46,568 bases of DNA from Candidatus Neomarinimicrobiota bacterium (GTDB taxonomy: Bacteria; Fidelibacterota; UBA2242; B5-G15), in contig JACDNV010000016.1 of NCBI GenBank assembly GCA_017656425.1, positions 1 through 46,568 of the forward strand. Direction: 5' to 3'. The notes beneath the pieces were generated by a model, which saw only the letters and a list, made by a program, of their open reading frames with translations, did no database searches and had not been told where the DNA came from. Every line of letters starts with the position of its first letter. Positions within the stretch are counted from its first letter, which is position 1. The position numbers and the translations under genes are program-made. Below, one piece after another: positions 36,442 to 41,325 of the stretch.

Positions 36442-36990
36442 TTTGGCAGCAAATTCTTTTTTAATTTTAATTCAGTTGGTAAAAACTGAGCAATTTCTTC
36501 GTCTGAAAATGTTAATTCTTCATCAATCTTAAGTGCTTTTCTAGCATCTTCGTAAACCCTTGAGTTTGTCTAATGGGCAATCTTGTATATAAGTTTCAAT
36601 TCTTTTATTTAATTGATCTCTTTTTGATGTAACCAATTCAACCTTGCCCCATCCCTTGATTTTCTCTGTAGTAGAATATTTTTCACTAAGAATTCTCTTT
36701 ATGTCTTGCAATAATTGAGATTGACTGTTTGATTCATTATCATCATATCGATCAAATTTATCATCAGGCATAATAAATAAAACATCTACATCTCTGGGCG
36801 GTCTGATATTTGTGTGTTTACCATAAGATCCAATTAATAATTTTGTACTTCCGTTATATTCATTATCAGGATAATAATGATCGTGTAGTTTTTTACACAC
36901 TCCATTATATTTTCTCTTTGCATCTTCTCTTTGTGAAGATGTAAGTTTTATATTTTCATAAAATTGTTCAAATTGTTTTTGAATGCTCAC
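36405..36990 (-). pseudogene. Broken CD-NTase (CBASS cyclase)-like nucleotidyltransferase
   Basis: The intact first part is 149 codons (36541-36990). It carries the CD-NTase hallmark: GSYGKHTNIRPPRDVDVLFIMP with Gly54-Ser55 and Asp67-x-Asp69, as in cGAS/DncV enzymes that make cyclic oligonucleotide alarms against phage. Full enzymes are about 300 aa. Here the sequence jumps from KGWGKVELV straight to a C-terminal-looking IETYIQDCPLDKLK and stops. In another frame, coding-like sequence resumes at once (RVYEDARKALKIDEEL...) and runs to a stop at 36405, so there is a frameshift and probably an internal deletion. The second catalytic carboxylate strand is missing. No CBASS effector is adjacent. 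Most likely inactive. Confidence 0.65.
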
Positions 36991-37157: not shown

Positions 37158-37342
37158 TTACATTCCTCAATTTCTTGAATTGCAGTTTTAACAATACTAT
37201 CTAGACATATAGATAAAGCGCTAATAATTCCTTTTCGTATAAAAATTATTTCTTCTTCACTAAGTTTTCTTCCAAACTCCTTTTTAGCTAATTTTTGTAA
37301 ATATTCTTCTTCAACTTCAAATATAATATTATTACCCATCAT
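37151..37342 (-). CDS. Small protein of unknown function following the nuclease gene
   Basis: 63 aa, acidic and mostly helical by composition (FEVEEEYLQKLAKKEFG, LSEEEIIFIRKGI). No family recognised. Its ATG overlaps the stop of the restriction-nuclease gene by four bases, which argues that it is translated as part of that operon. It could be an accessory or antidote-like protein, but nothing in the sequence proves it. Confidence 0.5.
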   Translation of the reverse strand: MMGNNIIFEVEEEYLQKLAKKEFGRKLSEEEIIFIRKGIISALSICLDSIVKTAIQEIEECNS

Positions 37343-38382
37343 AGTATTTTTAAGATAAAATTATTAGTTTTTGCCTCCTCATTTAACAACTTTAAATTTC
37401 TTTTTTGAGTAGAGGTAAGTTTTCTAACATCAAAATGATTCTCCACCGTTAATTTCAAAACAGGTCTTGGATTAAAACTCCTTCCGTTAATTCTCACATC
37501 CTCTAAATTTGTAAATAAAATCATTTTAATCAACCCGTCTTTTATATCACCGACAGATGGCAGTGTTCCTTTGCTGTGCTTACCTTCTATTAAATAAACT
37601 TCCTTTCCTTTTAACTCAACTTCATCTACTGTAAAATAATAAAAACCGCCAAGATAATTTTTGATTGTAATAATACCTTTTTCTCCGGATAAATACTCTT
37701 TAGGTTGAGTTGTTATACTTTCTCGTCTTTGGGCCTTCTTTGCCAAAGCACGAGAAAGATTCATAAATTTTTCTTTTCCTCTTTGCAATTGTTTTATTCT
37801 TTTTTCTGCACTAACCCAAGAATGCATCTCAACTTTAGTCTTTTTTGAAATTAGTTTATAGCTTTTTAATGCTTTCTGAGCAATTTCACCAATTTTATCT
37901 ATTTGAGAAAGATTCCAATGTAAAGCATCGGATTGATAGGAAAGGATTTCCTGTATTTTTTCTTTAATATAACCTACATCAAACCTCTGGTTGGTAATCT
38001 TATGTCTGTACCTTTTGCTTCTTTCCGCCTCAACATAATAGCCAATAATTACATAAACACCCAAGAGGCTCATTAAAGAAATAGTATCCCATTGAAGAAA
38101 ATCTCTGTCTCCTTTTTTGCCTTCATCTTTTACTATGGGAATAATTGTTATTTTTCTTCCCGCAAAATTTAAAGTATCATAAACTCTTGCATAAGGATAA
38201 GAACGAGTCCGTTTAGCTGAAACCCACCAACTTATAGCTACGCTCTTTCCTTTACTAAAATTTAATATAAACGAAGCATGTTTTGATAATACTTCTTCCA
38301 ATTCCCTAAATGCAAATTCTTTTAAATCTGCACAAAGATAAGGTTTATATTTTATTCCTATTATTTTAGCGGATAGGTCCAT
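37339..38382 (-). CDS. Probable type II restriction endonuclease (PD-(D/E)XK-like)
   Basis: 347 aa. A candidate nuclease core lies late in the protein: Asp253 in TVDEVELKG and Glu266-x-Lys268 in YLIEGKHSKG, the D...ExK arrangement of PD-(D/E)XK enzymes, followed by GDIKDGLIKMILFTN. A basic, coiled-coil-like linker (about 160-225) precedes it, and the N-terminal 120 residues are unassigned. The gene overlaps the methyltransferase by 17 bases in the same operon; a partner of this kind with a cognate methylase is the main argument for restriction. No recognition sequence can be inferred. No named family recognised. Confidence 0.65.
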   Translation of the reverse strand: MDLSAKIIGIKYKPYLCADLKEFAFRELEEVLSKHASFILNFSKGKSVAISWWVSAKRTRSYPYARVYDTLNFAGRKITIIPIVKDEGKKGDRDFLQWDTISLMSLLGVYVIIGYYVEAERSKRYRHKITNQRFDVGYIKEKIQEILSYQSDALHWNLSQIDKIGEIAQKALKSYKLISKKTKVEMHSWVSAEKRIKQLQRGKEKFMNLSRALAKKAQRRESITTQPKEYLSGEKGIITIKNYLGGFYYFTVDEVELKGKEVYLIEGKHSKGTLPSVGDIKDGLIKMILFTNLEDVRINGRSFNPRPVLKLTVENHFDVRKLTSTQKRNLKLLNEEAKTNNFILKIL

Positions 38383-39220
38383 ATTTTCCCGGTTTACGAA
38401 TAATTATTTCCAATTTGTCATCTGTATTAAAAAAAGCTGTCTGTTCACCAAACCCTAACTTTTTCTTAATAATTGGGATTAAGGATTTCTTGATTTCTAT
38501 GCCAATGCTGTTTCTGCCTAAATCTCTGGCTACTTTCATTGTTGTTCCACTTCCCACAAAGGGATCTAAAACTGTTTCTCCTTTATAGGAAAAGAGCTTT
38601 ATTAATCTATAAGGCAGTTCCTCTGGAAAAGCTGCAATATCTTTTTCTAGGGGAGAACCCGGCAATACGTTATTCATTTCCCAAAGTGTCATATACCATT
38701 TGTTATCCGAAAATTCTTTTTTGTCTATTTTGGAAGCCTCTCTTACTTCTTTAGGGATAGAACGGTAATTAAATTTTTTGCCTTTCTGAAAAATTATAAT
38801 ACTCTCCAGTAAATTATCTGGATAAAAATACATAGGATAAGGGTTTTGCAAAATAACCCCACTCCTTCTACTAATCCTTAAATACCCATCGGGTTTTTTC
38901 CAAATAATTCTATCTCTGTATTTAAAACCTACCTCAAGAAAAATCTTTGTAGCATCAGCAGTTATTGGAAATTTTTCTCCATTGATGAGCATATCGTCAA
39001 TATTTAATACAGCAATTCTCCCTACTTGAAGAACTCTATAAGTTTCCTGAGCAAATCTTTTTAACACCCCAAGATATTGTCCATAACTTTTAAACAATCC
39101 TTTGTAATCAAAAGGGGCATTGAAATATGGAGGAGAAGTTACCATCAAATGAACACTATTATCCGATATCTCATCCATGCTCATACAATTTCCAATTATA
39201 AGTTTGTGATAAGTAGCCAT
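38366..39220 (-). CDS. Type II DNA methyltransferase (SPPY, beta-class order)
   Basis: 284 aa. The catalytic motif TSPPYF (28-33) comes before the SAM-binding motif LDPFVGSGTT (218-227), the permuted order of beta-class amino-methyltransferases. IGIEIKKS near 239 is the acidic loop for SAM. SPPY points to N4-cytosine or N6-adenine methylation. Length is compact but complete. It lies nine bases after the HTH gene and overlaps the nuclease gene, as expected for a modification enzyme expressed ahead of its nuclease. Confidence 0.9.
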   Translation of the reverse strand: MATYHKLIIGNCMSMDEISDNSVHLMVTSPPYFNAPFDYKGLFKSYGQYLGVLKRFAQETYRVLQVGRIAVLNIDDMLINGEKFPITADATKIFLEVGFKYRDRIIWKKPDGYLRISRRSGVILQNPYPMYFYPDNLLESIIIFQKGKKFNYRSIPKEVREASKIDKKEFSDNKWYMTLWEMNNVLPGSPLEKDIAAFPEELPYRLIKLFSYKGETVLDPFVGSGTTMKVARDLGRNSIGIEIKKSLIPIIKKKLGFGEQTAFFNTDDKLEIIIRKPGKYGPIR

Positions 39221-40089: not shown

Positions 40090-41232
40090 TTACTTTTTAA
40101 ATAAATCTAAATACTTCCATAAAACAAAAAGGCGATTACGGGAATGGCCTGTTATTTCTTTAACCAGTCCTGCTTTTAAAAATTTACTAAGAAGAGAGTT
40201 AGCAGTATTAAAAGCAACATCAAATTCCGTCTTGATAGTTTTCACATCTACAATGGGTTTAGAAAACATAAAAAGTAAAGCCCGATGGCCAATCTTTGCC
40301 TGACGCCCAAACTTCATAATCTCTCTTTCATACAATTGGCGAAGCTTAATAATCTCTTCAAAAATGTTTATCCCTTCTTTAGAAATAGTAATAATCCCTG
40401 TAAGAAAAAATTTTAACCACTGCTCAATGTTATTGTTTGTTCGAACTAAATTAAGAGAATCATAATAAGATGACCTGTGTCTTTCAAAAAAACTTGAGAG
40501 ATAGAGAGAAGGTTTTTTTAAAAATCCATAATTAATAAGTTGCAAAGTTATAAGAAGACGACCAATTCTTCCATTACCATCCAAAAATGGATGGATAGTT
40601 TCAAACTGGTAGTGTGTCATAGCAGTTTTAATCAATGTAGGGATACTTAACTTTTTATTATGCCAAAATTCCTCTAAATCTTTTAAAAGATTGGGGATTT
40701 CTGTATGATGCGGTGGAATAAAAATAGCATCTTGCAAACTTGAACCTCCTATCCAATTCTGGCTTTTTCTTATTTCCCCAGGTTCCCTTTCCTTCCCTCT
40801 TACTCCAGAAAGCAAAATTCTATGAGCGTTCTTTATCAACCTCATACAAAGAGGGAGATTCTCAAGCTCTGATACTGCGTAGTTAATTGCCTTAATATAA
40901 TTCTGCACCTCTCTCCAATCATCTCTCTTTTCAGGGATTATTTCTTCTTCAGAAAGAATCGCCTCTTCTACACCAGTTTTTGTACCTTCAATTCTGCTTG
41001 ATAAAGTTGCTTCTTTAACTACATGCATTCTTATAAAAAAATCAACATCAGGAACCAACAAAGAATAGGCATTAAATTCTCCTAACAATCGCACCGCTTC
41101 CTCTAATAGTAAAGTGATTATTTTATCTTCCCATTCAAATGGCTTGTTAATAAATTTAGGACTAAAATATTGATACTCATAGTCCTTCCCTTGGAAATAT
41201 TTTTTATAAATGCCCGCTTCAAACTTTTGCAT
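40090..41232 (-). CDS. Fic-family protein with N-terminal inhibitory helix and C-terminal winged HTH
   Basis: 380 aa. Fic_N comes first, with the autoinhibitory motif SSRIEG (78-83). The Fic core has [12 protein letters not shown] (214-225), complete with His, Asp/Asn and Arg for transfer of AMP from ATP onto a protein hydroxyl. The last 70 residues ([15 protein letters not shown]...[17 protein letters not shown]) look like a winged HTH. Because the inhibitory helix and HTH are on the same chain, self-restraint and autoregulation are plausible. The promoter region carries repeated TTGAAATAAA half-sites. Target protein unknown. Confidence 0.9.
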
Positions 41233-41251
41233 ATTTATTATCCATGTTAAA

Positions 41252-41325
41252 TTGAAATAAACACTCCTTTTATTTCAAGTTTATACAATAATCTGAAATA
41301 AATCAACTTTATATTTCAAGTTTAT
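41252..41325 (-). promoter_or_regulatory. Half-site array upstream of fic (putative operator)
   Basis: TATTTCAAGTTTAT occurs exactly twice (41271-41284 and 41312-41325). TTGAAATAAA (41252-41261) and TTTATTTCAA (41269-41278) form a perfect 10-bp inverted repeat with a 7-base centre that, on the minus strand, reads AGGAGTG. A further CTGAAATAAAT lies at 41294-41304. Four half-sites in 75 bp upstream of a gene encoding a winged HTH suggest autoregulation. The AGGAG is about 31 bases from the start codon, so it may not be the ribosome site. The distal copy overlaps the radC stop. Confidence 0.55.

Follow-up and report, generated by a model that had tools for sequence, protein, structure and literature searches.

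The fic locus and its upstream array

The window analysed here is a stretch of 46,568 nt (contig JACDNV010000016.1) from a Candidatus Neomarinimicrobiota bacterium. It contains a fic gene on the minus strand, with radC as its upstream neighbour and a type II restriction-modification pair just downstream. The relevant features are given below in window coordinates.

36541-36990, ORF of 149 aa matching part of the SMODS (CD-NTase) model
37339-39220, type II restriction-modification pair just downstream of fic (Pfam, PADLOC)
37339-38382, REase gene of this pair, overlapping the methylase gene
38366-39220, N6/N4 methylase gene of this pair, overlapping the REase gene
40090..41232, minus strand, fic, 380 aa, class II Fic protein with a predicted C-terminal winged HTH (Pfam Fic_N + Fic)
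40093..40260, minus strand, winged HTH, codons 325-380 (AlphaFold)
40174..40212, minus strand, putative recognition helix, codons 341-353 (AlphaFold, covariation)
40195-40197, minus strand, S346; the residue aligned here predicts half-site position 5
40207-40209, minus strand, N342; the residue aligned here predicts half-site position 6
40558..40593, minus strand, Fic catalytic motif, codons 214-225 (alignment of 42 sequences)
40984..41001, minus strand, inhibitory motif S-x-x-x-E-G, SSRIEG, codons 78-83 (alignment of 42 sequences)
41249..41258, plus strand, half-site 4, AAATTGAAAT, inverted, proximal unit (sequence, array scan)
41249..41281, no strand, proximal palindrome, half-sites 3 and 4 with a 13-bp spacer
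41264..41268, minus strand, AGGAG in the proximal-palindrome spacer
41272..41281, minus strand, half-site 3, AACTTGAAAT, proximal unit (sequence, array scan)
41278..41283, minus strand, predicted -10 box TAAACT, overlapping half-site 3 (consensus scoring)
41290..41299, plus strand, half-site 2, AATCTGAAAT, inverted, distal unit (sequence, array scan)
41290..41322, no strand, distal palindrome, half-sites 1 and 2 with a 13-bp spacer
41301..41306, minus strand, predicted -35 box TTGATT, between half-sites 1 and 2 (consensus scoring)
41313..41322, minus strand, half-site 1, AACTTGAAAT, distal unit; its first base overlaps the radC stop codon
41322-42005, minus strand, radC

The encoded protein matches the Pfam Fic domain at 68 bits and carries the Fic catalytic motif HPFx[D/E]GN[G/K]R, within which H214, P215, F216, D218-R222, G224 and R225 are invariant among the 42 aligned sequences. 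The inhibitory motif of class II Fic proteins has the form [S/T]xxxE[G/N]. Here the motif is N-terminal; across the same alignment E82 and G83 are invariant and S78 is retained in at least 90% of sequences. In CbFic2 the motif takes the form TSAIEG (PMC10628234). Its motifs place the window protein among the class II Fic (Fido) AMP-transferases, and AMPylation is its predicted activity. The PADLOC SoFic model aligned over residues 19-379 (model positions 5-359 of 361) with 376 bits. The NCBIfam SoFic equivalog NF046030 gave 152 bits and, since the curated cut-off is 550, the protein was not filed as a SoFic equivalog.

A preceding sequence-only reading of this DNA had the Fic protein ending in a winged HTH, and the AlphaFold model (pLDDT 86, pTM 0.86) agrees. 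Helices are predicted at residues 330-337 and 341-353 with a wing strand at 368-370; pLDDT in this region is mostly 86-95, with one ten-residue block at 77. Comparison with PDB structures returned SoFic of Shewanella oneidensis first (SO_4266; PDB 3eqx, 3zcn; Z 35 over 337-342 residues), a protein with the same domain order and fold but 25% identity over the structure alignment. CbFic2 of Coxiella burnetii followed at Z 22, and the predicted tail alone was matched to winged HTH proteins such as PerR (Z 10). The same genome holds a second, distant Fic gene (L007, G000 C31 66-980; 26% identity) at a contig end, where its upstream region is cut off.

Fic proteins with a winged-helix tail are widespread and occur in defence loci. 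The 149-aa SMODS ORF close to the restriction-modification pair and fic is possibly a shortened CBASS-type synthetase. Because this ORF and the pair lie beside fic, a defence role for the gene is plausible.

The gap between radC and fic holds, on the minus strand, four 10-bp half-sites of the AACTTGAAAT type separated by spacers of 13, 8 and 13 bp. They pair into two palindromes, 41 bp from each other; relative to AACTTGAAATN13ATTTCAAGTT, the distal one has 2 mismatches and the proximal one has 1. The array occupies 41249-41322 (74 bp), from the stop codon of radC (41322) to a point 16 nt upstream of the fic ATG (41232); thus, the span of 41232-41325 assigned to it previously brackets the array. 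All of the repeats noted in the sequence-only reading were recovered, namely the four half-sites at the positions listed above, an exact 14-mer direct repeat (TATTTCAAGTTTAT, 41271-41284 and 41312-41325) and a perfect 10-bp inverted repeat (TTGAAATAAA at 41252-41261, TTTATTTCAA at 41269-41278) flanking the minus-strand AGGAG. A repeat search returned the same elements as a direct repeat of 37 nt (78% identity, copies spaced by 41 bp), together with inverted repeats.

A short region with A+T-rich half-sites is what might be expected if the repeats had arisen by chance in an A+T-rich intergenic region. However, the four-half-site score of the window exceeded that of 100/100 dinucleotide shuffles (z 6.7). 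When the 2.8-Mb genome was searched for AACTTGAAATN13ATTTCAAGTT with up to 3 mismatches, two matches were obtained, both of them the fic palindromes, and a reversed control pattern gave one match; no wider regulon was found by this whole-genome palindrome search. Chance is further contradicted by the control windows and the held-out recurrence described below, and its probability is negligible.

Consensus scoring placed a candidate promoter within the array. A general promoter scan did not list the TTGATT/TAAACT pair, because 8 of its 12 letters match the consensus and the scan requires 9. The same register was observed upstream of many orthologs, where a -35-like box lies 15-16 bp past the start of half-site 1. 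Many arrays likewise possess a -10-like box 17 bp beyond the -35-like box, overlapping the start of half-site 3. Transcription from the window promoter would begin near 41271.

It had also been proposed that the inverted repeat works in the mRNA as a hairpin that shows or hides the AGGAG, so controlling translation. The perfect 10-bp repeat with its AGGAG loop does fold as RNA (-6 kcal/mol), and a purine-rich loop is also present in L104 and L172. The fold is nevertheless weak relative to shuffles (z -1.4), the AGGAG lies 31 nt ahead of the ATG and the predicted transcript start excludes the 5' arm of the hairpin. The distal palindrome is located upstream of this start, and so outside the transcript from that promoter. 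Furthermore, SD-like letters occur in the proximal spacer of 6/89 arrays, and the AGGAG was counted as not conserved for this reason. The hairpin proposal thus fared poorly, and translational control of this kind is very improbable.

Recurrence of the array upstream of fic genes

The sequence-only reading held that, for an operator, orthologous fic genes should have the repeats upstream as well. Scanning one genome for each species gave 80 loci with Fic relatives. One of these (L117, in which the match begins at residue 98) was omitted, and the remaining 79 were scored together with the window, giving 80. The array model comprised four half-sites of any letters with spacers of 12-14, 7-9 and 12-14, and was assessed against 100 dinucleotide shuffles. 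An array was detected at p<=0.01 in 49/80 fic upstreams (window and 79 orthologs). Held-out loci obtained from separate searches yielded arrays in 40/60, a 61st (L157) having been omitted as its upstream was too short. The expected repeats are therefore present in both sets. At z>3, arrays were found in 61% of fic upstreams versus 0.6% of 474 same-locus control windows.

The geometry is rigid. Among 34 loci with p<=0.05, the direct-repeat offset was 40 bp (19 loci), 41 bp (12), 42 bp (2) or 56 bp (1), so that 33/34 fall at 40-42 bp. When inverted repeats were sought with no geometry imposed, significance was reached in just 33/80 upstreams; such a scan is weak because short A+T-rich palindromes are common, and the four-half-site geometry was therefore needed. 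The half-sites themselves differ among loci and include AACTTGAAAT, AACTTTACAT, AAATGGAGAT, AACTGCAAAT, AAATAGAAAT, AACTTTTAAT and AAATGTTAAT. Record names in the array set include WOR-3, Ignavibacteria, Acidobacteriota, Patescibacteria, Poribacteria, Omnitrophota, Elusimicrobia, Firestonebacteria, Nicoletella and Actinobacillus, among others.

A significant array was missing in 31/80 orthologs and 20/60 held-out loci. Part of this absence is accounted for by a closely placed upstream gene, which ends within 60 nt in 9/31 loci lacking an array versus 1/49 loci possessing one. L073, L078 and other proteobacterial loci have no array, and in them fic is close behind an upstream gene that by eye resembles type I restriction hsdS. 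Three distant homologs (39.9-42.4% identical), all plasmid-borne in cultured bacteria, gave no canonical array either, namely those of Thermus thermophilus HB8 pVV8, Picosynechococcus PCC 7002 pAQ6 and Phyllobacterium zundukense. In the T. thermophilus pVV8 locus (L183, upstream of about 2501), CTTGTGATAC-like copies about 30 bp apart were observed by eye, and these are perhaps another operator geometry in a distant branch.

Three further loci are of note. In L054 (upstream of 2252) a third copy of the repeat unit, spaced at 40 bp, was seen by eye, and it is the last unit that holds the promoter. L172 retains an intact AACTTGAAAT array ahead of a fic gene with internal stops (2 TGA, 5 TAG, 2 TAA). 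L136, a viral-collection contig, encodes a Fic relative of 50% identity and has a significant array, which suggests that gene and operator travel together.

Half-site letters and the recognition helix

We compared the letters of the half-sites with the residues of the Fic tail. Across 71 combined sequences, Arg346 was associated with G at half-site position 5 (11/13 versus 0/58), and Asn342 with G at position 6 (13/13 versus 7/58). The two exceptions to the first association are L098 and L102 (half-site AAATAGAAAT), while the 7/58 indicate that G6 also occurs with residues other than Asn342. R346 was the top alignment column for G5 (p 3e-11; runner-up 1e-3) and N342 the top column for G6 (p 1e-9; runner-up 5e-5), again over 71 sequences. 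Both residues reside within the recognition helix predicted by AlphaFold.

The rule was derived on a first set of loci; predictions were then recorded, the automatic half-site caller was frozen and the held-out loci were scored. Training-set counts were 7/9 versus 0/31 for R346, 8/8 versus 7/32 for N342 and 5/5 versus 1/35 for His341 with Pro or Gln342. The caller agreed with hand calls in 37/45 cases, the training-set phase having been partly set by hand. L088 was removed by hand from the training covariation set, and L104, L115 and L092 were absent from the protein alignment.

The held-out letter-code test took 31/60 loci, 29 being omitted. Among the 31 proteins kept, G5 accompanied R346 in 4/4 cases versus 0/27 without Arg, and G6 accompanied N342 (without Arg346) in 3/3 versus 2/28. 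The third prediction, for His341 with Pro or Gln342, was borne out in 1/1 versus 0/30. The omitted loci with R346 comprise L146 and L149 (called G5) and L164 (called not G5), all without a significant array, together with L147 and L148, which have G5 and are near-copies of L070. Thus, the two-residue recognition rule (342, 346) held in the held-out sequences.

In a tree built from residues 1-300, the Arg trait changes 9 times and the G trait 8 times. Supported branches gave 4 independent pairs (3 agree, 0 disagree and 1 with no difference), too few for significance. As the independent-pair test was too small, the DNA trait was simulated along the tree with matching counts, and 0/3000 simulations reached the observed association for either residue-letter pair. 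Operator distance tracked winged HTH distance when Fic-core distance was removed (partial r 0.20, p 0.004); the reverse partial correlation, of operator with Fic-core distance after removal of the winged HTH, was r -0.01. The layout recurs in distantly related bacteria, and the operator letters change together with the protein residues that very probably read them.

Palindromic operators are common to many regulators, and the array might be bound by another host transcription factor, local or global, of which fic is merely a target. Such a factor would not be expected to track Fic residues 342 and 346, yet the half-site letters change with Fic's own recognition helix across phyla. A host regulator would also be expected to have more targets than the fic palindromes, yet no further copy of the operator turned up genome-wide with up to 3 mismatches allowed. 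We consider a separate regulator distinctly improbable.

A candidate self-operator and its precedents

The array is, with high probability, the operator of fic's own promoter, to which the winged-helix tail of the encoded Fic protein would bind, shutting the promoter. Direct autorepression by the Fic winged HTH, as put forward in the sequence-only reading, finds good support in comparison, both from the array in orthologs and from the covariation of letters with the helix. Each half-site would accept one recognition helix and each palindrome one Fic dimer, the occupied dyad lying in either the 13-bp or the 8-bp spacer. As the palindromes are 40-41 bp apart, or about four helical turns, two dimers would be bound to one face of the DNA, jointly covering the -35 box, the -10 box and the transcription start, such that RNA polymerase is shut out once enough Fic protein is present. 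We infer that the purpose may be to limit the amount of an AMP-transferase that is possibly toxic and belongs to a defence locus.

A precedent for a different outcome of binding is provided by CbFic2, a class II Fic protein with a C-terminal winged HTH (PDB 8cil). CbFic2 binds DNA, and this binding stimulates its AMPylation and de-AMPylation and induces dimerization; it was assayed with random DNA (PMC10628234). The window Fic might similarly bind its operator mainly to switch the enzyme, by activating it or by shifting it between AMPylation and de-AMPylation, instead of repressing transcription. The position of the operator on the predicted promoter of its own gene is, however, that of a repressor site, and repression and enzyme switching could coexist. 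A mainly enzymatic role for binding is improbable.

Autorepression by a Fic-HTH protein is known from CccR (YPK_0951) of Yersinia pseudotuberculosis, where it was demonstrated by footprinting, mutated palindromes and a deletion reporter, and is lost in a dimer-interface mutant (PMC9755527). CccR resembles the window protein in joining a Fic domain to a C-terminal HTH, and its 10-bp inverted half-sites likewise lie near the -35 and -10 of its own gene, where the window promoter is predicted (PMC9755527). Autorepression is shown for CccR and proposed for the window Fic. The two operators differ in geometry: that of CccR consists of a pair of half-sites with 26 bp between them, AGATAATCAT-N26-ATGATAATCT (PMC9755527), whereas the window array has spacers of 13, 8 and 13 bp with units 41 bp apart and no 26-bp half-site distance. 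CccR differs, too, in being secreted by a type VI system (PMC9755527).

As of PMC10628234, DNA binding had not been shown for SoFic; the E. coli anti-phage protein Sofic is described as a dimer through helix 1 (PMC12249575). AbiE toxin-antitoxin operons offer a further parallel, in that an operon-encoded protein binds cooperatively to inverted repeats in the promoter (PMC3985639, PMC7319586). In AbiE it is the antitoxin that binds, whereas in the window enzyme and putative DNA-binding domain are combined in one protein. No paper on this array was found in the open-licence literature searched. Within the literature searched, CccR has the only mapped operator among Fic-wHTH proteins.

The array would thus represent a sequence signature of self-regulation in a large Fic lineage. 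If this is true, self-regulated fic genes could be annotated from sequence alone and their half-sites predicted from the protein; for the window Fic, the rule predicts that S346R exchanges a T5 preference for a G5 one. Such self-regulation is relevant, too, to the question of how a defence enzyme with toxic potential may be kept in check when there is no separate antitoxin gene.

A more far-reaching version is conceivable but unlikely. It holds that, in many bacterial phyla, a rigid self-operator of four half-sites is maintained throughout this Fic lineage and diversifies in its letters with residues 342 and 346, that its occupancy acts as a built-in antitoxin and that its loss or titration triggers defence. 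A phage degrading or replicating DNA would remove or titrate the operator, releasing both expression and enzyme activity. Since the letters diversify with these two residues, each copy would silence mainly itself. In one genome with two fic copies (L015 and L033) the half-sites differ, as insulation between copies would require; in another (L126 and L135) the half-site is common to both.
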